48,126 bases of DNA from contig JAGXTJ010000036.1 of the NCBI GenBank assembly GCA_018333655.1, forward strand, positions 1-48,126, read 5' to 3'. The stretch comes from Bacillota bacterium. GTDB lineage: Bacteria; Bacillota; UBA994. Shown here piece by piece: positions 2,026 through 18,249 of this stretch. Made by a program: the position numbers and the translations under genes. The number at the start of each line of letters is the position of its first letter. Position 1 is the stretch's first letter. The notes under the pieces are model-generated. The model did not search any database, was not told the origin of the DNA, and saw only the letters and a program-made list of their open reading frames with translations.

Positions 2026-2211
2026 ATGCCTATTCCGCTAATAATTGCATTTATAGTCCCATTTGCCTTCTGGGCCATGGTTGAAGATTACATACAGTAC
2101 AAAAAGGGCATAGGTACTCTTGTCAAGGTCAAAATCTTGGGGGGACTTATATTAGGATTCCACTTCATATTAATTGTGAGTATTGCCATGTGGTTTTCGG
2201 GAGCGCGATAA
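2026..2211 (+). CDS. Small two-helix membrane protein, function unknown
   Basis: 61 aa. ATG at 2026 follows AAGGAGGG with ideal spacing, which supports it as a real gene. Two hydrophobic segments (about residues 3-18 and 39-57) are separated by a charged stretch (VEDYIQYKKGIG), giving a helical hairpin in the membrane. There is no signal-peptidase site and no recognisable family. It follows the divergent toxin-antitoxin operon and is followed 23 bases later by an even smaller membrane peptide, so the two may be co-transcribed to the terminator at 2354. Confidence 0.6.
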   Translation: MPIPLIIAFIVPFAFWAMVEDYIQYKKGIGTLVKVKILGGLILGFHFILIVSIAMWFSGAR

Positions 2212-2234
2212 CCATGATTATGTGAGGTGGTCGC

Positions 2235-2339
2235 GTGAAGACATCGTTCCCAGTCGCAATTAGGGGCCTGTTCTGCCTGGCATTCTTTGTGATATTGATC
2301 GGTGCAAATGTCTTGGCTGGGAATAAGGAAGACGCTTAA
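2235..2339 (+). CDS. 34-aa single-pass membrane peptide
   Basis: GTG at 2235 with GAGGTGG just upstream, stop at 2337-2339. The product has a short basic N-terminus, one hydrophobic span (about residues 11-28, GLFCLAFFVILIGANVLA) and a charged end (GNKEDA). It is followed 14 bases later by a strong hairpin terminator, which supports transcription through it. It could be a small regulatory or stress peptide, or the decayed start of a longer secreted protein. Nothing in the sequence fixes a function. Confidence 0.4.
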   Translation: MKTSFPVAIRGLFCLAFFVILIGANVLAGNKEDA

Positions 2340-2353
2340 GACTAGTCGAAAGA

Positions 2354-2377
2354 CCGCGAGCATATTAGTGCTCGCGG
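2354..2377 (+). terminator. Hairpin terminator after the small membrane genes
   Basis: Perfect 9-bp stem (CCGCGAGCA with TGCTCGCGG) around a 6-base loop, followed by CCTTTCG. The T-run is short, so termination may be partial. Confidence 0.6.
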
Positions 2378-2457
2378 CCTTTCGCTAAGCAAGATCCATG
2401 GTCAACTCGAACCTCTAAGAAGAGAATAGCCCATTGCAGGACATGTCAGGAGTTTTA

Positions 2458-2498
2458 ATGCCTAGAAAGCCTATCATTTAGAAGCTTAGGATGATAAT
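2458..2498 (+). repeat. Imperfect ~40-base direct repeat, copy B
   Basis: Second copy of the element at 1056-1095, in the same orientation, ending about 30 bases before the phosphatase gene. It contains TATCAT...ATGATA complementary halves and ends in a TATAAT-like A/T-rich stretch, so it may also overlap a promoter. Confidence 0.5.
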
Positions 2499-2526
2499 AT
2501 ATGTAATTGAGAAATGAGAGCGAGGG

Positions 2527-3237
2527 ATGATTATGCTTGAAGTGAAGATCGCCGTGGCCAAGACCAACAAGTACGCCGTGTCTGAGAGTGGTGACTCCTT
2601 AGAGATTACCGAGCGCCCGCAGGGGGGTGTGTCGGTCATTATGGCGGATGCTCAAGGCAGTGGCAAATCGGCGCGCACGAACAGCAAATTAGTCGTCTCT
2701 AAGGCTGCTACCCTCATTTCCGAAGGGGCGCGCGACGGCGCTGTGGCTCGCGCTGTGCATGACATGCTGTATGCCCTGCGCGACGGAAGGATTTCTGCTA
2801 CCTTGGTTATTGCCTCCGCCGATTTTGAAACGCAGAGCGTGGTCATATCGCAAAATGCCGGGCCGCCTATCTTTGTCGTGCAGGGTGGAACGGCGATGAC
2901 TCTATCCCCTAGCGACCAACCAATTGGTGTACATCGCAGCATGAAGCCGGCCATCTGCGAATTTCCCTTAGAGCAAGGGCTGGCCATAGTCGGCATGACC
3001 GACGGAGTTTATCATGCCGGTAGGGCAAAGGGGCGGCCGTGGGCTGATGAAGAGTTTGTGGACTTTGTAAAGAGTAATGTGGATCACCCCGAATTTCTCG
3101 CCAATGCCCTTTTGGCTGAGGCGGTGCGCCGCGATATGCAGCGTCCCTGCGACGACATGGCTGTTTTCGTGCTGCGCGTGGGGGAATACGATGCTGAGAC
3201 CAAGGTGCGCACGATGAGAGTAACCTTGCAGTGCTAG
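2527..3237 (+). CDS. PP2C/SpoIIE-like serine phosphatase domain protein
   Basis: 236 aa. The fold is a stand-alone SpoIIE/RsbU-type PP2C domain: an N-terminal strand ending in MADAQGSGKSA (position of the family's VADGMGHG metal motif), ATLVIASADFE, QNAGPPIFVV, the VGMTDGVYHAG strand with a metal-ligand Asp, and the final CDDMAVFVL motif. These enzymes dephosphorylate anti-anti-sigma factors or other phosphoproteins. The first metal motif departs from DGMG (here DAQG), so activity may be altered. No sensor or membrane domain is attached. ATG at 2527 follows GAGCGAGGG; ATG at 2533 is an alternative. It overlaps the P-loop gene downstream by seven bases, implying translational coupling. Substrate unknown. 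Confidence 0.7.
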   Translation: MIMLEVKIAVAKTNKYAVSESGDSLEITERPQGGVSVIMADAQGSGKSARTNSKLVVSKAATLISEGARDGAVARAVHDMLYALRDGRISATLVIASADFETQSVVISQNAGPPIFVVQGGTAMTLSPSDQPIGVHRSMKPAICEFPLEQGLAIVGMTDGVYHAGRAKGRPWADEEFVDFVKSNVDHPEFLANALLAEAVRRDMQRPCDDMAVFVLRVGEYDAETKVRTMRVTLQC

Positions 3238-3575
3238 AGCGACGAGTGGGGGTCGTGGGCAACTGCGTCTCTGGCAAGACTACCCTCGTCAACAGTTTAC
3301 AAGCGCACGGCTACCGTGCCATCAACATCCCGCAAGAACATTCCGTATCCCCGCGCTTTTGGCGGCGTTTGGCACCCGATTTCTTGATTTATTTAACTTG
3401 CACCTTATCTACCGCGCAAAAGCGGCGACAGATACCATGGGGGCAAGAAACACTTGATGCGCAGTGGAAAATACTGTCGGAGGCCAGAGAAAATGCCGAC
3501 CTCATCATTCCGACTGACGAGCTCACTGCTACCGAAGTCTTGGCCAAGGCTCTAGATGCTCTCGGCTCGACATAG
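3231..3575 (+). CDS. Small P-loop NTPase, coupled to the phosphatase gene
   Basis: 114 aa starting at GTG 3231, inside the last codons of the phosphatase gene. Residues 7-18 form a Walker A loop (GVVGNCVSGKTT). Mid-protein there is a hydrophobic strand (DFLIYLTCTL) and later DLIIPTDEL. It lacks the NKxD guanine motif, so it is not a standard GTPase; the size and pattern fit a small nucleoside/nucleotide kinase-like fold. The seven-base overlap with the PP2C-like gene suggests the two act together, perhaps as a kinase/phosphatase or nucleotide-dependent switch, but this is inference from position only. Confidence 0.6.
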   Translation: MLERRVGVVGNCVSGKTTLVNSLQAHGYRAINIPQEHSVSPRFWRRLAPDFLIYLTCTLSTAQKRRQIPWGQETLDAQWKILSEARENADLIIPTDELTATEVLAKALDALGST

Positions 3576-9916: not shown

Positions 9917-12079
9917 ATGAAGAAATTTCTTGCCGCCTTTGTGGTCGCCGTCATGCTGCTAACTGTAGCTGCGCCGGCCATAGCAGCACAAAGTGACCCG
10001 AAGCTAAGAGAGGCCATTCTCTTGGCTAAGCGGCACTTTCCTGCCACCGATACTTTTCGTGAGTTCTTCACCTCGCAACAAAGTTTTGACAACCGGACCA
10101 TCTACTACTTGCAGTGGCAGGGTTCCACAAAAGACCCTGCTGGTCACAATCCCTCGTCGCTTTCAGTTAGCGTAGATTTAGAACGCATGCTAATCACCAA
10201 TTTCAACCACCAAGAGGCAACCCCGCGTGGTCGCGCAGTTAATTTCGCTCCCTTGCCAAAACTAAGCCAGGCCGATGCTGCCCGCGCGGCCGAGGCCCTA
10301 GCAGTAAAACTGGCACCGCAGCAATTTGCCCTGATGCGCTTGTTTCGTGTCAATGCCCCGACTGTGCGTATTGGTGTGCGCACTTGGCCCCACCACTACA
10401 CTTTTCACTACATCCAATTTGTCAACAACATTCCCTTTCCGGCTAATTCGCTGTCCGTCACTGTCAATGCCGACAGTGGCGAGGTTGTGAACTACCACCT
10501 CAACCATACGGAGTATGAGTTTCCTTCTCCGGCAGGGGCCATCTCGCTCGCACGCGCTGAGGAAGTGCTTAAGGGCGTGGGACTAAAGCTTGTTTACCAG
10601 CAGGGCTTCTCGTGGCGGCAGGGTGAGAGCAAACCCTTTCTCGCCTATGTGCTAGAAGACGGCAGGCAACTACACATAGATGCGTTTACGGGTGAGATTC
10701 TAAAAAACATCCCCGTTCTGCCCTGGCCTAGCGGTCTAGATTCTAAGCAAGACGGCAACTTAGCAGCGCAAAGAGAAGCCGGCTTAACCCCCTACGAGCA
10801 GAAAGAAATTGAGCTAGTGGCCGGGCTAATGCCACTTGCCGAAGCTGAAGCGCTAGCGCGCCTCATGCTTAACCTACCAGCAGAAGCAGTGCTACAGGGT
10901 TCGCGCCTCTACCTAGATACGCGCACAGAGCAGCGCTTGTGGACACTAAACTTCCGCACCCAGACAAACGACAAGGAGGGCTCCGCGAGTGTCACTCTTG
11001 ACGCCGCAAATGGTCAGCTAGAGTCACTCTTTTACCACGATCAAGTCGCTGATGAAGATAAACCCACCATGACCCGGGCCGCAGCCCTTGAAATCGCGCG
11101 TCAATTTCTTAGCCGCTATGTGAGCGCAAGATACCAGTCGGTGGTCCTCATAAGCGCCCACCAACCTGAGCTCGGAGAGGTTCATCACGCTCATGGTTTC
11201 ACCTGGAACCGCGAGGTGAACGGCATACCCGTCACCAATGACAATCTCTTTGTCTCGGTGCGCCATGATGGCAGAGTCACTAGTTTTAGTTCCAATTGGT
11301 ATCGTGGCGAGTTCGTATCCCCGCAAGGCGCACTCACCGGGGCACAAATGAGCCAGCGTTTTCTGGCCGACGTAGGGCTTGAATTAATGTACGTGGTGTC
11401 ACAGGTCGAGGTGAAGGGGCGTAGGCAGCCCGCGACGGAGATTAGGCTCATCTACTTGCCCAAAGAACTAGGGTCTTACTTCTTCGATGCCTTCACCGGC
11501 AAAAACGTCGACTGGCAGGGGCAGGCTGTAGTGCCGACCGTTAAGCCCAACTATACAGATATTGCGGCGCACTGGGCACAGGCGGACATTAAGCTTCTCG
11601 TCGATTGGGGCTTGCTCAGGCTCCCCGGCCATGAGTTTCGCCCTGACGCCACCATGAACCTAGGCGATTTGCTCTCACTCCTAGCTACCGCTGCAGGCTG
11701 GGAAGACTCTATCGGCATCAGGCCCCAATGGCTAAGCGGAGTCGCTAACGAGCGCAATGTTTCGGCATTAAGCTTCGCAGCGCACAACAACCTTATCCGC
11801 GAGGATGAGAAGATTGACCCAGAAGCCCTCGTCACCCGCGAGATGCTCGCCTTTTACTTAGCGAGGCTCACCGGGCACGGCGAAACGGCCGCTTTCGAAG
11901 GCATCTGGGCCGCACCTTTTGCCGATTTTGCGGAAGTGGCGGCCAAGTACCAAGGCAGTGTCGCCATAGTGCATGCCAAGAGACTTATGGCAGGTTCAAA
12001 CGGAAACTTTATGCCGCAGGCTCACACCACGCGGGCGCAGGTCGCTGTTATACTGGCTAGGATGCTGCGCGTTAAGTAA
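9917..12079 (+). CDS. Secreted S-layer protein: YcdB/PepSY-like domains plus three SLH repeats
   Basis: 720 aa with a classical signal peptide (MKKFLAAFVVAVMLLTVA..., cleavage likely after AIAA, ~24). The middle (~30-530) holds repeated YcdB/PepSY-like units, recognisable by recurring phrases such as VNADSGEVVNYHLN, IDAFTGEILKN, LDAANGQLESLF and FDAFTGKNVDW. PepSY-type domains are often linked with peptidase inhibition. The last ~185 residues contain three S-layer homology repeats (YTDIAAHWAQADIKLLVDW; NVSALSFAAHNNLI; FADFAEVAAKYQG...TTRAQVAVILARML) that anchor the protein to wall polysaccharide. GAGGAG precedes the ATG. A strong terminator follows at 12093. Confidence 0.9.
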   Translation: MKKFLAAFVVAVMLLTVAAPAIAAQSDPKLREAILLAKRHFPATDTFREFFTSQQSFDNRTIYYLQWQGSTKDPAGHNPSSLSVSVDLERMLITNFNHQEATPRGRAVNFAPLPKLSQADAARAAEALAVKLAPQQFALMRLFRVNAPTVRIGVRTWPHHYTFHYIQFVNNIPFPANSLSVTVNADSGEVVNYHLNHTEYEFPSPAGAISLARAEEVLKGVGLKLVYQQGFSWRQGESKPFLAYVLEDGRQLHIDAFTGEILKNIPVLPWPSGLDSKQDGNLAAQREAGLTPYEQKEIELVAGLMPLAEAEALARLMLNLPAEAVLQGSRLYLDTRTEQRLWTLNFRTQTNDKEGSASVTLDAANGQLESLFYHDQVADEDKPTMTRAAALEIARQFLSRYVSARYQSVVLISAHQPELGEVHHAHGFTWNREVNGIPVTNDNLFVSVRHDGRVTSFSSNWYRGEFVSPQGALTGAQMSQRFLADVGLELMYVVSQVEVKGRRQPATEIRLIYLPKELGSYFFDAFTGKNVDWQGQAVVPTVKPNYTDIAAHWAQADIKLLVDWGLLRLPGHEFRPDATMNLGDLLSLLATAAGWEDSIGIRPQWLSGVANERNVSALSFAAHNNLIREDEKIDPEALVTREMLAFYLARLTGHGETAAFEGIWAAPFADFAEVAAKYQGSVAIVHAKRLMAGSNGNFMPQAHTTRAQVAVILARMLRVK

Positions 12080-12092
12080 GCTGAACCCTCTG

Positions 12093-12132
12093 CACGAAGA
12101 CCGCGCCTAGATACTATGGCGCGGTCTTCGTG
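12093..12132 (+). terminator. Strong terminator between the SLH gene and the peptide island
   Basis: Perfect 15-bp stem (CACGAAGACCGCGCC with its complement) around a 10-base loop, followed by TTGTT. It separates the surface protein gene from the radical-SAM peptide locus. Confidence 0.85.
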
Positions 12133-12226: not shown

Positions 12227-12254
12227 TTGACACTCACCATTTTTTCTGTATAGT
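12227..12254 (+). promoter_or_regulatory. Promoter for the radical-SAM peptide locus
   Basis: Perfect TTGACA at 12227-12232 and TATAGT at 12249-12254 with a 16-base spacer, 41 bases before the peptide start codon. Confidence 0.75.
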
Positions 12255-12295
12255 GCAATTAGAGTAGTGGGATAAATTTCAATGGAGGGATTGCC

Positions 12296-12442
12296 ATGAA
12301 AATATTAGAATATGGCAGAGATCTATTGGCTTTAAAGCAAGTAACTATCACTGCTGGTTGTTGCAGCAGCTCTTTGTGCGACTTTTACGGGGTACACTCG
12401 CCAATAGCTGAAGAAGACGTTCAAGAAGAAAACAAGACGTAA
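12296..12442 (+). CDS. 48-aa Cys-containing candidate RiPP precursor peptide
   Basis: ATG at 12296 follows GGAGGG with a six-base spacer. The peptide has a leader-like N-terminal half (MKILEYGRDLLALKQVTI), a core-like stretch TAGCCSSSLCDFYG with Cys22, Cys23 and Cys28, and an acidic tail (EEDVQEENKT). It comes first in the operon, 56 bases before a radical-SAM/SPASM-type maturase gene, the standard order for thioether (sactipeptide/ranthipeptide-like) or related modified peptides. The AG before the first Cys could be a leader-cleavage site, but no C39 peptidase is in the locus. I do not recognise a named family. The function could be a bacteriocin or signalling peptide; this is inference from context. 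Confidence 0.7.
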   Translation: MKILEYGRDLLALKQVTITAGCCSSSLCDFYGVHSPIAEEDVQEENKT

Positions 12443-12498
12443 ATCATTAACACTCGACCCACTACTCTTGTATTGTCGAAGTCGGGGGGCGTTAGCCA

Positions 12499-13791
12499 AT
12501 GATTGTTGGAACGTATAACGTAGTAATCACTTCCCGTAGAGAACCTGATAAACTCTATGTTTTCAACCTCTTGTCCGCTGCAACAGTCTCTCTCTCGACC
12601 TCAGCATTGGAAAACTGGCTCAAGGGAGACTTTTCTCAGCTTAATGAAAGAGAGTTTGAGTTCCTGAAGGACAAGCTCTTTATAGTTGAGAATAGAAAGC
12701 AAGAGAGAAACTTGGCCATGTTTCGGCTACAGGAACAGAAGAATACTAATGTGGTCAATCTTACAATATATACTACATACAACTGCAATTTTGCATGTTT
12801 TTACTGCTACGAGGCGGCTGGAAAGGTACTTAATCAAGGCAGCATGAGTCTTGATACTGTGAGCAGCGTTTGCGCTTGGCTAGAGCATTATATGGATGGC
12901 AGGGTGTTCAAACACTTGAATTTGACTTTTTATGGTGGTTAGCCTCTTCTCAACATGCCAGGCCTTCTAGCTGTCGCGAATCACCTTAGTGCTCTGTGTC
13001 AACAACACCTAGCGGAACTCAGAACATTGCTTATAACCAATGGTTCGCTTCTAACTCCAGATGTGTTGAATCATCTGCGAAAATATAATCTTAGCCAAGT
13101 CCAAATCACTTTAGATGGAGCGGCAAACATACATAACCAGACAAGGCCGTTCGTTGATGGTAGCCCAACTTATAATGTGATCAAAGCGAATCTAGATCAA
13201 GTGGTTGATATTTGCCCGGTATCTTTAAGAATGAACACAGACCTCTCAAAAATACATTCAGCATTTTGCATGCTAGACGACCTGTGCGCATCGGGCATTG
13301 TTCGAAATAATAATATTTTTCTGGAGGTAGCTCATATTATGGACTGTGGGCGCGGGCAGGTTCCTGAATCTTTGTCTCCAGAGTTTGTAGCTGCTAGGCA
13401 TTCAGTTATAGAATATGCTGTAAAAAATGGCTTCAGGGTGCGTAACCCATTGAAGCTAGCACCATGTCATGCGCGCACTCCTGGCTGCTTTAGTATTTTG
13501 CCCGATGGGCGCATATTCAACTGTTTCTTACTTGTAGACAGGCCAGAGTGCCAGTTAAGTTCTGTTAAAAAGTTGTCCTTTGAAAACATTTACTATGAAT
13601 TGGTAACTCATCAAAGTTATGATGAGGCTTGTCTTGAGTGCAGCTTTTTACCAACTTGCATGGGCGGGTGTCGCGCTGCGGCACTCAAGCACAACGGAAC
13701 CCTGTCTTCGAAAATGTGCAACCTTAGTTACTACAGGCAAGTCGTAGTTCCTGATCTTGAATTGCATTTTGATTGTGGCAGTTGGGAATAA
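12499..13791 (+). pseudogene. Radical-SAM/SPASM-type peptide maturase interrupted by an in-frame TAG
   Basis: 431 codons in one frame, broken only by TAG at 12940-12942. Residues 96-103 carry the radical-SAM cluster motif CNFACFYC (CX3CX2C). The TAG replaces the Glu of the GGEP motif that helps bind SAM: the frame reads FYGG-stop-PLLNM, whereas the second copy reads FYGGEPLLNM. A single G-to-T change (GAG to TAG) explains it. Downstream, LLITNGSLL and the QITLDG strand follow, and the C-terminal ~100 residues carry nine cysteines spaced like a SPASM/twitch domain for extra iron-sulfur clusters. The ATG at 12499 has a GGGGGG ribosome site. The intact C-terminal frame means a recent mutation or a sequence error. 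The 5' part alone could not be active. Confidence 0.88.
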
Positions 13792-13795
13792 ATTG

Positions 13796-14458
13796 ATGTT
13801 TGGAACCTACAATGTAGTAATGCCTACTGAGATTGGAGACTTCTTAGTCTATAATACTCTTAGCAAAGCCGCAGTCTCTCTTAAGGCATCAGAATTTCAA
13901 CGTGTGCATGATGGCATTGTGACGAACTCATTCTTGCGCCGCTCTCTAATCGTCTGTGATCGTGTAGACGAGGAGCAAGCTCTGCAGCGCTACATTCATG
14001 CAGTTTTACACCGAGACGAGCTTCATGTTGCTATAACGCTAACGCGCAAATGTAATTTCTCATGCGCCTACTGTTTTCAGGTTAGTGAAAAAAACGTCGA
14101 TATGTGTGATGAGACAGCGAATAAACTCATAGACTGGATCTCGACCCAAGTTAATGGTAGTAGGTACAGCGTTGTACACATAGTTTTCTACGGTGGGGAG
14201 CCTCTTCTTAACATGCAGAGACTCACCGACATGGCCAAAAGCATAAGTTGCGCGGTGGGCGAGACACGACTACGTATGAGTATCATTACTAATGGCTGGT
14301 ACCTTATTCCTCCGATTATCCAAGAACTCGTTGCAGTCGGCGTGGATTCCGTGCAAGTTACTCTTGATGGACATGCGTCCACGCATAATGCAAGGCGTCC
14401 TTTGATGGACGGTTCAGGTACACAAGCCCAACGAAGCTTGCAGAAGGCGCGAATATGA
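13796..14458 (+). pseudogene. Second radical-SAM maturase copy, truncated after the SAM barrel core
   Basis: 220 aa from ATG 13796, four bases after the first copy's stop. It is clearly a paralogue: GTYNVV N-terminus, CX3CX2C at residues 86-93 (CNFSCAYC), intact FYGGEPLLNM, SIITNGWYL, QVTLDGHASTHN and RRPLMDGSGT. After GSGT the similarity to the first copy (which continues PTYNVIKANLD) stops abruptly and 11 unrelated residues lead to a stop. The SPASM-like half is therefore missing, and normal maturase function is unlikely. Unlike copy one, its GGEP motif is intact, so the two copies have complementary damage. No obvious internal frameshift was seen in the remaining part. Confidence 0.85.
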
Positions 14459-14773
14459 TATGCTGCGTGATTGCATACTGCCGCATTGTTACTAAGCATG
14501 CTTTGCCCTCGTAGTTACGAGCGTGATTCTCATCGTTAACTGCGCTTTCAATCAATTGACCATAATGCAATCGACTAATATCGCATTGCAAGTTACAAGG
14601 CAGTGTCGCGGCAATGTGGAGCTTAAAATGGCACTAGCGGCAAAGACGAGACAAGTGGAGCTTGGTCATGTCCGCCTTGCTGTCGCCACATGACGACGTC
14701 AGGGGAAAGTGGTGGGAAAGCAGAAGCCATTGGGCCGACGGCTGCTTGGAGCCTAGGATGCAAGCTTCCGATT
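14459..14773 (+). other. Gene-free remnant between the truncated maturase and the transporter
   Basis: No supported gene on either strand. The stretch contains GTGGAGCTT twice, about 45 bases apart, and begins where similarity between the maturase copies is lost, so it is probably the scar of a deletion or a decayed mobile element. I could not match it to a named insertion sequence; group II intron end motifs are absent. Confidence 0.5.
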
Positions 14774-14801
14774 AAGTACCACAAGGTCAGAGGAGGTACT
14801 T
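14774..14801 (+). promoter_or_regulatory. Inverted repeat overlapping the transporter ribosome site
   Basis: Perfect 7-bp arms AAGTACC (14774-14780) and GGTACTT (14795-14801) around 14 bases. The right arm overlaps the AGAGGAGGT ribosome site of the TTG start at 14806 and is followed by pyrimidine-rich sequence. Confidence 0.4.
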
Positions 14802-14805
14802 TTCT

Positions 14806-16236
14806 TTGATCAAACTAGCGTATTCCAGTATGCGTCACCGACTAACTAGGACTATAATCACCATTTTTGCCATGGCTATCGCTGCGGCAGTCGTTACGAG
14901 TGGTATGGCGCTCTCGCAAGGCATTGCAAGGAGGGCATATATTGAGTATCGTACGTATTATCAAGGCGATATCTTGGTCTTTACCCCAACCTATGTAGGT
15001 GCTGCCATGCTTCATCAAGTGAACAGCCGTATAAAACAGGCCATACTGTATGATTCAGGCTTTAATTCGTTACTTAGGCTATATCCTCACTTCGGTGCCA
15101 CAGGATATCTGGCATATGAAGCTTATCCGTACGTCCCCATTTCTCTCGAACAAATAGGACGCCTGCGCACCTTTTCGGGAATCCAATCAGCAGAACCAAC
15201 TTTGCTGATGCCGGGCCGCGTTGGGCAGATAGATATCACCCTCAAGGTCACAAACAATGATCTGGAGAATCACTTAGTTACGGGAAGAGTTCCACATGCG
15301 AATGCTCACAATTACGGGTCTTTGGAGATTGTCGTGAACGCTCATGGTGGCATTCCAGCAAACCTGGGGAATATTGTGACAGTTACGGTGCCAGCGTTCG
15401 GGGTGGGCGCATCTGGGATACCATTCGTAGATTTCAGTTCTGCTCCACAGGAGTACGCTGCAAAGGTTGTTGGCATTGCCGAGTGGCCTACAAGGGAGCT
15501 GTCATACTTTCCGCCAGGTGTTGGTGGCGAGCCCATATATGAACAAGGCTATGTACATAGCGCAGAAATCTACTTGGCCCCTAGCGCGTGGGAACAAATT
15601 TGGCACAGACAGGCGGAAAATTTGGCGTATCCTGTTCTTTCGGCATCCCTGAGGGTAGACAATCTCTCGCGGCTTAATGTCATTGCAGCACAACTTCGGT
15701 CAGCGTTCCCTGAGTTGACCATTAAGACGGTTCCCGAGGTGGCGCGTCATGTTGAGCGGTACAACCTTCTTGATCATTTCTACACGTTGCCGTCACATGT
15801 ATGGCAAGTGTCATCTGATGCCGTCACCCACGAACATGTGCCTGTTGAGTTCGGATTGGCTGTTTCCCTTCTTCTCTTTGCTAACGCAGGTATGCTTCTC
15901 GCTGGACAGATGCTTTCAGGCGTTGCAGAAAGAAAGAAGGAAATCGGTATTCTTAAAACGCTAGGAGCTCGACGCAGTGACATTGTCGGCATGGTCTTAA
16001 TTGAAGGTTTTCTTTTGGCCTCGATAGGTTCACTTCTCGGCTTTAGCTTCATACGATTACTGGCTACAATTCGCGAATTTGGCAACCAAGCTGGTGCATT
16101 GTCTGTCATATACTCTACAGCAAAGGAATTCCTCACGGTCATGAGTCTCACGACACTAGTGTCCCTGATATTTAGCGCGATTCCTGCAGCGTGTATGGCT
16201 AACTTAACGGTGATGGAGGTGCTTCGCAATGAATGA
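14806..16236 (+). CDS. FtsX/MacB-type ABC transporter permease 1
   Basis: 476 aa. TTG at 14806 has a full AGAGGAGGT ribosome site. One N-terminal helix (~15-38), a large extracellular MacB-like domain (~40-345), then a C-terminal FtsX domain with three helices (~350-470). The cytoplasmic coupling loop GVAERKKEIGILKTLGARRSDI is the family signature, and the end VMEVLRNE matches the usual xPxExLR tail. Such permeases export peptides or lipids, or confer resistance to antimicrobial peptides, rather than import solutes. It overlaps the ATPase gene by eight bases. Located directly after the peptide and maturase genes, it is the likely exporter or immunity pump of that system. Confidence 0.88.
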   Translation: MIKLAYSSMRHRLTRTIITIFAMAIAAAVVTSGMALSQGIARRAYIEYRTYYQGDILVFTPTYVGAAMLHQVNSRIKQAILYDSGFNSLLRLYPHFGATGYLAYEAYPYVPISLEQIGRLRTFSGIQSAEPTLLMPGRVGQIDITLKVTNNDLENHLVTGRVPHANAHNYGSLEIVVNAHGGIPANLGNIVTVTVPAFGVGASGIPFVDFSSAPQEYAAKVVGIAEWPTRELSYFPPGVGGEPIYEQGYVHSAEIYLAPSAWEQIWHRQAENLAYPVLSASLRVDNLSRLNVIAAQLRSAFPELTIKTVPEVARHVERYNLLDHFYTLPSHVWQVSSDAVTHEHVPVEFGLAVSLLLFANAGMLLAGQMLSGVAERKKEIGILKTLGARRSDIVGMVLIEGFLLASIGSLLGFSFIRLLATIREFGNQAGALSVIYSTAKEFLTVMSLTTLVSLIFSAIPAACMANLTVMEVLRNE

Positions 16237-16909
16237 AATTATCATGCGTACTGAGCGCCTTAATAAGGCCTTTAGTCTAGGTGAGACCATTTACGCCGTC
16301 TCAGATGTATCGCTCTATATCCCTGCAGGAAAGATAGTAGCAATTGTAGGCCCCTCAGGTTGTGGCAAGAGCACCTTGCTGAGCCTGCTTGGCGGCTTGG
16401 ATCGCCCTATGAGCGGCGACATCTTCTTAGAGAGACAGTCTTTTCGTATGCTTTCTGAGGATGGCTTAGCCATGCTGCGACGGAGGAAGCTAGGATACGT
16501 GTTTCAGTTTTTCAATCTTATTCCGCACCTAACAGCCATAGAGAACGTCATGCTGCCAATGTCATTCATTGGCGTGAGCCGCCTAAATGCGAAGAAACGG
16601 GCCGCAGAATTGTTGGCTCAAGTGGGTCTAACAAAAAGATTGAACCATCTTCCGCTTCAGCTCTCTGGGGGAGAACAACAGCGTGTCGCAATTTCCAGAG
16701 CCTTAGCCAACAACCCTGCACTAGTACTGGCAGATGAGCCTACGGGAAATTTAGATAGTAGCTCCAAAAACGACGTCCTTGATCTGTTCAAGATGTTCAA
16801 CGCGATGAATGGCCAAACTTTTGTGTTAATTACACACGATGCGTCGGTAGCGGGCATTGCCCAGAAGGTTGTTCGTATGGTTGACGGAAGAGTACTTGAG
16901 GAAAAATGA
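16229..16909 (+). CDS. ABC transporter ATP-binding protein (MacB/LolD type)
   Basis: 226 aa, the standard length. Walker A GPSGCGKST (~40-48), the Q-loop around FQFFNLIPHLTAIENVMLPM, signature LSGGEQQRVAISRAL, Walker B LVLADEPTGNLD with the extra TGNLD typical of MacB/LolD/YknY ATPases, and the H-loop in LITHD. All catalytic residues are intact. ATG 16229 lies eight bases inside permease 1, and the stop overlaps the permease 2 start by four bases (ATGA), so the three transporter genes are translationally coupled and form one complex at the membrane. Confidence 0.95.
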   Translation: MNEIIMRTERLNKAFSLGETIYAVSDVSLYIPAGKIVAIVGPSGCGKSTLLSLLGGLDRPMSGDIFLERQSFRMLSEDGLAMLRRRKLGYVFQFFNLIPHLTAIENVMLPMSFIGVSRLNAKKRAAELLAQVGLTKRLNHLPLQLSGGEQQRVAISRALANNPALVLADEPTGNLDSSSKNDVLDLFKMFNAMNGQTFVLITHDASVAGIAQKVVRMVDGRVLEEK

Positions 16910-18249
16910 TACAGCTAGCCCGGCGAATCTTTATAAAAAGTTGGCGCATACAGTTGGCGATTACCTGCTTATTTGCGGCTTCAGTTGCCTTGTTAGTAAT
17001 TTATGGCACCTACCTGCAGCGGGAAATCAATCTGCTAGAGGTGAGGATGGATGGGGGACTCCAAGACAGTTTTATACGAGTGGAGCTAAATGACTCACAG
17101 AGAGGCCCGAGTAAGTTGCGCCCGTCTCGCGGTCTTGGGACTGTGCCGTTGCAGTATCTCGGTTCGTGGCAGACAGGTGTTGTTGATACAAGCCATGGCC
17201 GCTTGCCTGTAGCTATGGTGACGCAGGATACTGGCCTCAATTTAGGGATAGGCAGTGCAGAAGTGCTTGTACCGCAAGTTTTGGCCAGTGAGCATAATCT
17301 CGCAGTTGGCGACAAACTGGTTGTCGTTACTAAAGGAGCGCATGCACAGTTCACAGTGGCCCAAGTCCATGATGGCACCATCTATGGGCAACGAATAGTT
17401 GTTTGGGATAAAAATGCATTGGCCTCTAATGTTTTCTTGTATCGTCATGAGTCTGGAGCAGCATCTGCGGCAGTTACTTCCCTGCGGCGCACCTATCCAG
17501 CAGGAATTATTGCATATAGTGGTAGTACGCGCTCTGCTGCGGAAGAGGTCATTGATGCAGTGTACTCCCCAGGGATTAGGGCGCGTTTTGGAGTCATTCT
17601 CTTTATAACAATTGCGTTTCTCGCAGTAACAGTATTCAGTTTTTTAGGGAAACGTAAGGTGCTCGCCATAGTAAAATCCTTGGGCTTAAGATCTTGGGAG
17701 ATGGTCACCCTATTGTTTTACGAGGCAGTTTTACCTCCCTTGTTTGGTTCCTTGCTTGGTTGTGGCCTTGCCTATGTTACCCTGCGCTGGATGATTAGTG
17801 CTGGGCAGCAGTTTGCTATCGACGGTTCAGTCTTTATAAGCTCTGCGTTAAGTATCTGGCCAGCGGTTGCAATCGGCATAGCCATCCCAGCGCGCTTCAC
17901 TCAAGTAGCCACAGTAAATCAGCTACTGTATGAACGGCCGGTGCCCTTCCAAACAGTCATAATAAAGGAGTTGGGTAAACGTATCAGTGCGCTAGATGTT
18001 TATACTAGTCAAGGCATAGAATTTATCCATTTGCAGATGGAGTACGGGCACTTTAACGGTTCTGTATTTCGTCGTTTAGGTGATTATGTGAAGCAGGGAG
18101 AGGTGCTTGCTGTTGAGGAGCGATGGTGGGGGCTGCAGGTAGTGGAGTACCATGCTCCAATAACGGGCTATATAGTATACTTTCAGGATGAGTTAGGCCT
18201 TGTAGGTGTCTCTCCATTGCATTTTGGCGCTCGGTGTGGTAATACTTAG
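16906..18249 (+). CDS. FtsX-type ABC permease 2 with C-terminal lipoyl/HlyD-like domain
   Basis: 447 aa. N-terminal helix (~12-30), an extracellular domain (~35-215), and an FtsX domain with helices near 225-245, 265-290 and 300-330; the coupling loop GKRKVLAIVKSLGLRSWEM is present. The family usually ends just after LLYERP, but here about 110 more residues follow. Residues 380-447 look like a biotinyl/lipoyl or HlyD-type hybrid barrel: GSVFRRLGDYVKQGEVLAVEE, then EYHAPITGYIVYF. No Lys sits in the lipoyl-lysine position that I can identify, so it is probably an adaptor-like fold rather than a cofactor carrier. No separate membrane-fusion protein gene is in the operon. Starts ATG 16906 overlapping the ATPase gene. 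Confidence 0.85.
   Translation: MIQLARRIFIKSWRIQLAITCLFAASVALLVIYGTYLQREINLLEVRMDGGLQDSFIRVELNDSQRGPSKLRPSRGLGTVPLQYLGSWQTGVVDTSHGRLPVAMVTQDTGLNLGIGSAEVLVPQVLASEHNLAVGDKLVVVTKGAHAQFTVAQVHDGTIYGQRIVVWDKNALASNVFLYRHESGAASAAVTSLRRTYPAGIIAYSGSTRSAAEEVIDAVYSPGIRARFGVILFITIAFLAVTVFSFLGKRKVLAIVKSLGLRSWEMVTLLFYEAVLPPLFGSLLGCGLAYVTLRWMISAGQQFAIDGSVFISSALSIWPAVAIGIAIPARFTQVATVNQLLYERPVPFQTVIIKELGKRISALDVYTSQGIEFIHLQMEYGHFNGSVFRRLGDYVKQGEVLAVEERWWGLQVVEYHAPITGYIVYFQDELGLVGVSPLHFGARCGNT

Follow-up and report, generated by a model that had tools for sequence, protein, structure and literature searches.

A 48,126-nt stretch of contig JAGXTJ010000036.1 (positions 1 to 48,126 of the forward strand; assembly GCA_018333655.1, Bacillota; UBA994), called the window below, carries a short cysteine-containing peptide gene followed by two radical-SAM maturase genes (rSAM1 and rSAM2) and a three-gene exporter of the ATP-binding cassette (ABC) type. 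In our judgment this cassette probably represents a small new precursor/maturase family of ribosomally synthesized and post-translationally modified peptides (RiPPs) that is decaying in this genome, half of rSAM2 being lost and rSAM1 being interrupted by a nonsense codon; the peptide gene, its promoter and the exporter are all intact. The newness lies in this small subfamily (core GCCS...YGVH), which is not named by current NCBIfam models, and not in a new RiPP class, as the original prediction had suggested, since the maturases are ordinary combinations of RRE, radical SAM and SPASM domains from the neighborhood of the geopeptide, CefB, Clo7bot and PapB families. Genome assemblies were taken as given, with one genome per species; in addition to the source genome (G000), the comparisons draw mainly on G001 (same genus), G004 (another genus of the same family) and G012, a Clostridia metagenome-assembled genome (MAG; isolate CSSed10_434R1, public record PWPR01000218.1) in which an intact form of the subfamily exists. 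The features of the cassette are as follows.

12093 to 12132, forward strand: perfect 15-bp inverted repeat with a 10-nt loop, a possible terminator at the left cassette edge
12227 to 12254, forward strand: promoter TTGACA-16-TATAGT (11 of 12 matches, the best of the region)
12258 to 12274, forward strand: 5' leader block ATTAGAGTAGTGGGATA, conserved with G004
12296 to 12442, forward strand: 48-aa precursor peptide MKILEYGRDLLALKQVTITAGCCSSSLCDFYGVHSPIAEEDVQEENKT with Cys22, Cys23 and Cys28 and a good ribosome-binding site
12499 to 13791, forward strand: rSAM1, radical SAM/SPASM maturase with an N-terminal RRE-like domain, a GTYNVV N-terminus and an in-frame TAG
13796 to 14425, forward strand: rSAM2, tandem paralogue keeping CNFSCAYC, GGEP and GTYNVV, with homology ending at about residue 210
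14426 to 14805, forward strand: 380 nt of single-copy sequence between rSAM2 and the exporter
14806 to 16236, forward strand: FtsX/MacB-type ABC permease 1
16229 to 16909, forward strand: LolD/MacB-type ABC ATPase
16906 to 18249, forward strand: FtsX-type ABC permease 2, its last few codons lying in sequence shared with the insertion site

This layout agrees with the original prediction in its strong promoter, the peptide with its three cysteines, the gene order and the GTYNVV N-termini of both maturases. The three-gene FtsX/MacB exporter (14806 to 18249) is likewise supported by Pfam domains (PF02687 at 40.3 and 32.4 vs. a cut-off of 25.5; PF00005 at 121.2 vs. 25).

A search of related genomes with the peptide revealed a 58% identical relative in G004 (E 7e-13), located directly upstream of an orthologous exporter, while the G012 locus has a more distant relative (32% identical) immediately before its only maturase gene, which is intact. 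Thus one genome (G012) has a related peptide beside a homologous maturase, and another (G004) has one beside the remains of a maturase together with the exporter. In an alignment of the three peptides, M1, E5, G7, GCCS at 21–24 (including Cys22 and Cys23) and YGVH at 31–34 are invariant. Between the window and G004 peptides, 80% of synonymous and 24% of nonsynonymous sites differ (pN/pS, the ratio of nonsynonymous to synonymous divergence, 0.30; Fisher p about 1.5e-8 for the synonymous excess, on rounded counts), a ratio comparable to that of the exporter genes in the same pair of genomes (0.17–0.42). Judged by this pattern of substitution, the 48-aa open reading frame (ORF) can be taken with assurance as a true gene, under purifying selection since the two genera split. 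The family appears in the data as a small one: a wider search of 398 genomes of the phylum yielded three true members, the weaker matches that were inspected either overlapping other genes (within them or on the opposite strand) or having no maturase beside them, and neither NCBIfam nor Pfam contained a match to the peptide.

The highest scores of the maturases are with families of peptide maturases, and not with a family of enzymes with other substrates. Their best NCBIfam models (CefB, geopeptide, TIGR04463, Clo7bot and PapB) are all far under their cut-offs: the top-scoring neighbors CefB (NF038107) and Clo7bot (TIGR04334) align over the full length but at 189.1 and 142.6 bits, respectively, vs. 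cut-offs of 600, PapB (NF047865) scores 116.3 vs. 340, and geopeptide (TIGR04280) scores 183.1 for rSAM1 and 197.3 for the G012 maturase vs. 400. In a tree of 27 maturases, in which many deep branches are weakly supported, rSAM1, rSAM2 and the G012 enzyme group together in a clade (86/90) that is separate from the geopeptide maturases, the latter passing their own model, with rSAM1 and rSAM2 as sister copies. The G012 maturase is intact and retains the SPASM cysteines; on PWPR01000218.1 it occupies 2096–3427, and the G012 peptide 1813–1926. A structural model of rSAM1 with the stop read through (mean predicted local distance difference test, pLDDT, 88.5; predicted template modeling score, pTM, 0.86) has CteB, a thioether-forming maturase, as its best solved match, and its N-terminus has a predicted beta-beta-beta-alpha-alpha-alpha arrangement that we describe as RRE-like from comparison of the whole model.

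Of the two SPASM maturase genes originally proposed, both are indeed radical-SAM genes, but neither is intact. The TAG of rSAM1 (12940–12942, codon 148) falls inside the SAM-binding GGEP motif, at a position occupied by Glu in all 19 other aligned maturases. The gene is otherwise well preserved, with CxxxCxxC present as CNFACFYC, the SPASM cysteines present when read through, and a departure at one of 27 near-invariant positions. In rSAM2, no SPASM domain or SPASM cysteines were found, and the 380 nt downstream of it contain no recognizable same-strand maturase sequence and no repeat, insertion sequence or Rfam element that our searches could find; a weak reverse-strand maturase match there (E 0.0015, with two of three motif cysteines) was left as probable chance. 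With neither cassette maturase having an intact reading frame in this genome, modification of the peptide here is doubtful; the lesions presumably abolish maturase activity, and the modification step has probably been lost. Maturation in trans by other family members of the source genome was considered and rejected, one such enzyme (contig C9) having its own Cys peptide upstream and another (contig C8) being frameshifted. Downstream of the G004 peptide, a stretch of ~350 nt contains what is left of an rSAM1-like gene and leads into the orthologous exporter; this remnant is frameshifted (residues 216–232 in one frame, about 232–268 in another), and its lesions are unlike those of the window maturases. 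From these comparisons, decay appears to have occurred twice, with the peptide, promoter and exporter staying in place.

An alternative that we consider unlikely, yet the most serious of those weighed, is that the cluster is alive, the rSAM1 stop codon reflecting a polymorphism between strains or an error of sequencing or assembly and rSAM2 being a redundant copy, so that one maturase would be enough. The state of rSAM1, otherwise intact and bearing one single-base lesion, is compatible with this, as are the sister relationship of the two copies and the single maturase beside the G012 peptide. However, the C8 maturase of the same genome is frameshifted too and the G004 orthologue is nearly deleted, and decay is therefore common in the lineage. 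Of the 24 radical-SAM matches in the genome, only that of rSAM1 contains an internal stop, which disfavors a generally error-ridden assembly, with the qualification that the searched Pfam segment spans some of these genes only in part. Reading of TAG as an amino acid was ruled out, since TAG ends 23 of the 40 ORFs in the window (the commonest stop) and no other radical-SAM match in the genome has an internal stop.

It is rather improbable, in our estimate, that the Cys peptide still serves, or has come to serve, a purpose in its unmodified, exported form (as a signal, a thiol peptide or an antimicrobial), with selection holding the precursor, promoter and exporter after independent loss of the maturases in two genera. 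Such a scenario would account for the retention of the peptide, promoter, 5' leader block and exporter in both genera while the maturases were lost in different ways, and the peptide pN/pS of 0.30 agrees with it; nevertheless, two sequences and a distant third do not allow selection that preceded the loss of the maturases to be told from selection that followed, and the one lesion in rSAM1 implies that decay of the peptide has had little time to set in. Two related genomes with maturases lost and precursor kept offer a natural setting in which to study whether an unmodified RiPP precursor can be functional.

The segment as a whole has the appearance of an inserted cassette of ~6.16 kb. Its predicted A/T-richness is evident (G+C 0.469 vs. 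0.527 and 0.529 in the flanks), and the 2.5-kb stretch lowest in G+C across all 48 kb begins at 12101. A strong terminator had also been proposed upstream: the perfect 15-bp stem at 12093–12132 is there, but with a T-tract too short for it to have been listed by the terminator scan; G001, at its empty site, lacks this repeat. The gene order in the window is a PepSY/SLH gene, the cassette and a zinc-ribbon gene adjoining pckA. The corresponding order in G001 is the PepSY/SLH gene, ~72 bp, the zinc-ribbon gene and pckA, with no cassette, and the PepSY/SLH and pckA neighbors also occur with no cassette in between in G004 and in a further relative, G007, making the insertion point empty in three relatives. 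Homology between the window and G001 ends near 12069 and restarts near 18235, within the final codons of permease 2, and thus ~6.16 kb was inserted here (or lost in the relatives). The cassette of G004 occupies a different chromosomal site, which favors movement over simple loss. No target-site duplication or transposon was seen at the inspected cassette edges.

That the exporter has another substrate and is no more than an unrelated neighbor of the peptide and maturase genes is, in our judgment, slightly less probable still than an unmodified functional peptide. Exporter orthologues do occur alone, at a third place in G007 and, at 25–30% identity, in other families, and the G012 locus lies on a short contig in which no exporter occurs. 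On the other hand, in two genera and at two different chromosomal sites this three-gene exporter is directly preceded by the peptide and a maturase (or its remnant). The peptide thus seems, from gene neighborhoods, to travel with the exporter, while the exporter can exist without the peptide and is therefore not strictly peptide-specific. The initial picture of a RiPP island with its own transporter accordingly suits the ancestral cassette, but in this genome the maturases are broken and the exporter is not strictly specific. Finally, a chance 48-aa ORF with the maturases acting on something else, for which the lack of NCBIfam or Pfam matches might speak, is very improbable given two relatives with invariant GCCS and YGVH before a maturase or its remnant and the strong excess of synonymous change.

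Several observations weigh against our preferred reading of a new family in decay. The third cysteine is not fixed in position (25 in the G004 and G012 peptides, 28 in the window), and the known peptide sequences are only three. The single lesion of rSAM1 may mean that this gene is recently broken, polymorphic or affected by an assembly error, and orthologues of the exporter occur without the peptide in G007 and in more distant genomes.

For the ancestral, intact cassette, we infer that the strong promoter would drive production of the precursor, whose leader MKI(L/M)ExGRD... would be bound by the RRE-like domain of the maturase. The radical SAM/SPASM enzyme would then cross-link the GCCS...YGVH core through its Cys residues, most likely by thioethers, and the FtsX-LolD-FtsX exporter would move the product out; no leader-removal protease was identified in the cassette. 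The chemistry is probably of thioether type, the core cysteines being the only hint in the sequence itself, and the proximity of Cys to Asp/Glu fits PapB-like Cys-Xn-Asp linkage (PMC9413430) as well as sactipeptide chemistry (PMC8172795).

A side-by-side comparison with known systems revealed partial agreement in each case. Geopeptide loci likewise pair a radical SAM/SPASM maturase of equal length with a very short peptide that carries a CC motif at its C-terminal end, but the cassette core GCCS...YGVH is unlike geopeptide cores. CteB/SCIFF and PapB share the RRE, radical SAM and SPASM architecture, and PapB substrates also share Cys near Asp/Glu; identity to CteB, however, is 16–18%, the cassette maturase is under the TIGR03974 cut-off, and the short GCCS core contrasts with six Cys or six CX3D repeats in the SCIFF and PapB precursors. 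Thuricin CD and thuricin Z/huazacin are sactipeptides with two radical-SAM enzymes and an ABC transporter (PMC8172795), and the cassette resembles them in its gene content, with a short Cys precursor, two radical-SAM genes and an ABC exporter; it differs in its broken maturases and FtsX/LolD-type transporter. The exporter shares FtsX permeases and a LolD-like ATPase with MacB/LolCDE systems, but it scores 232.8 vs. 307.75 bits with the LolD model and has two separate permeases, the second with a biotin/lipoyl-like tail. This C-terminal tail (17923–18246, ~100 residues), weakly similar to biotin/lipoyl or HlyD-type adaptor domains, is conserved in all orthologues seen and is unusual for an FtsX permease.

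With respect to the enzyme group at large, several distant maturase relatives also adjoin very short CC-containing peptides, including two loci (L066 and L071) whose maturases pass TIGR04280, and peptides of this kind seem, on the evidence of gene context, to be the shared substrates of the group. Upstream of TIGR04280-type maturases, the Nitrospirota geopeptide loci (L066, L071, L072, L080–L083) encode very short peptides that end in CC motifs (TTCCAGALIRI, ACCPGG, TAVCCAGG), several of which have leaders built of lysine-rich repeats. Plasmid and viral contigs contained distant maturase relatives only, and a first contig scan of genomes with rSAM1 alone as query found none.

Around the peptide gene, the G004 copy has a promoter at the same place (TTGACA-16-TATAGG). 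An inverted repeat (12261–12284 and 12445–12468) brackets the peptide ORF, with the 5' leader block pairing just past the stop; the corresponding mRNA hairpin has a z of -2.7 in the window but 0.3 (not significant) in G004 and is therefore unproven. The 5' leader block was rejected as a regulon site, with one exact copy in the genome and near-matches at control level. In G012, a near-perfect palindrome (PWPR01000218.1, 1931–1985, locus L065) lies between peptide and maturase and is perhaps a terminator or processing site setting the peptide-to-enzyme ratio.

Three other RiPP-like loci were noted in the source genome. On contig C9, a tiny peptide MVKIVKRARPLCQAMGCGCFCGKSA (G000:C9:155-232) is located just upstream of an intact geopeptide-type maturase (297–1616, L022), preceded by an apparent truncated transposase end where the contig begins. 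The C8 maturase (G000:C8:935-2247, L024), split by a frameshift at its CxxxCxxC motif, gives this genome a second case of a broken RiPP maturase and has small Cys-rich ORFs beside it (e.g., ...WDCAWFGLCCADGFCCKGITP at 2370–2489). The third locus (G000:C15:1991-3583, L023) combines a candidate peptide MRIRKGRFSLTKNEIDVCDGCPGRMVCGGKSR with an intact maturase and ABC transporter genes.

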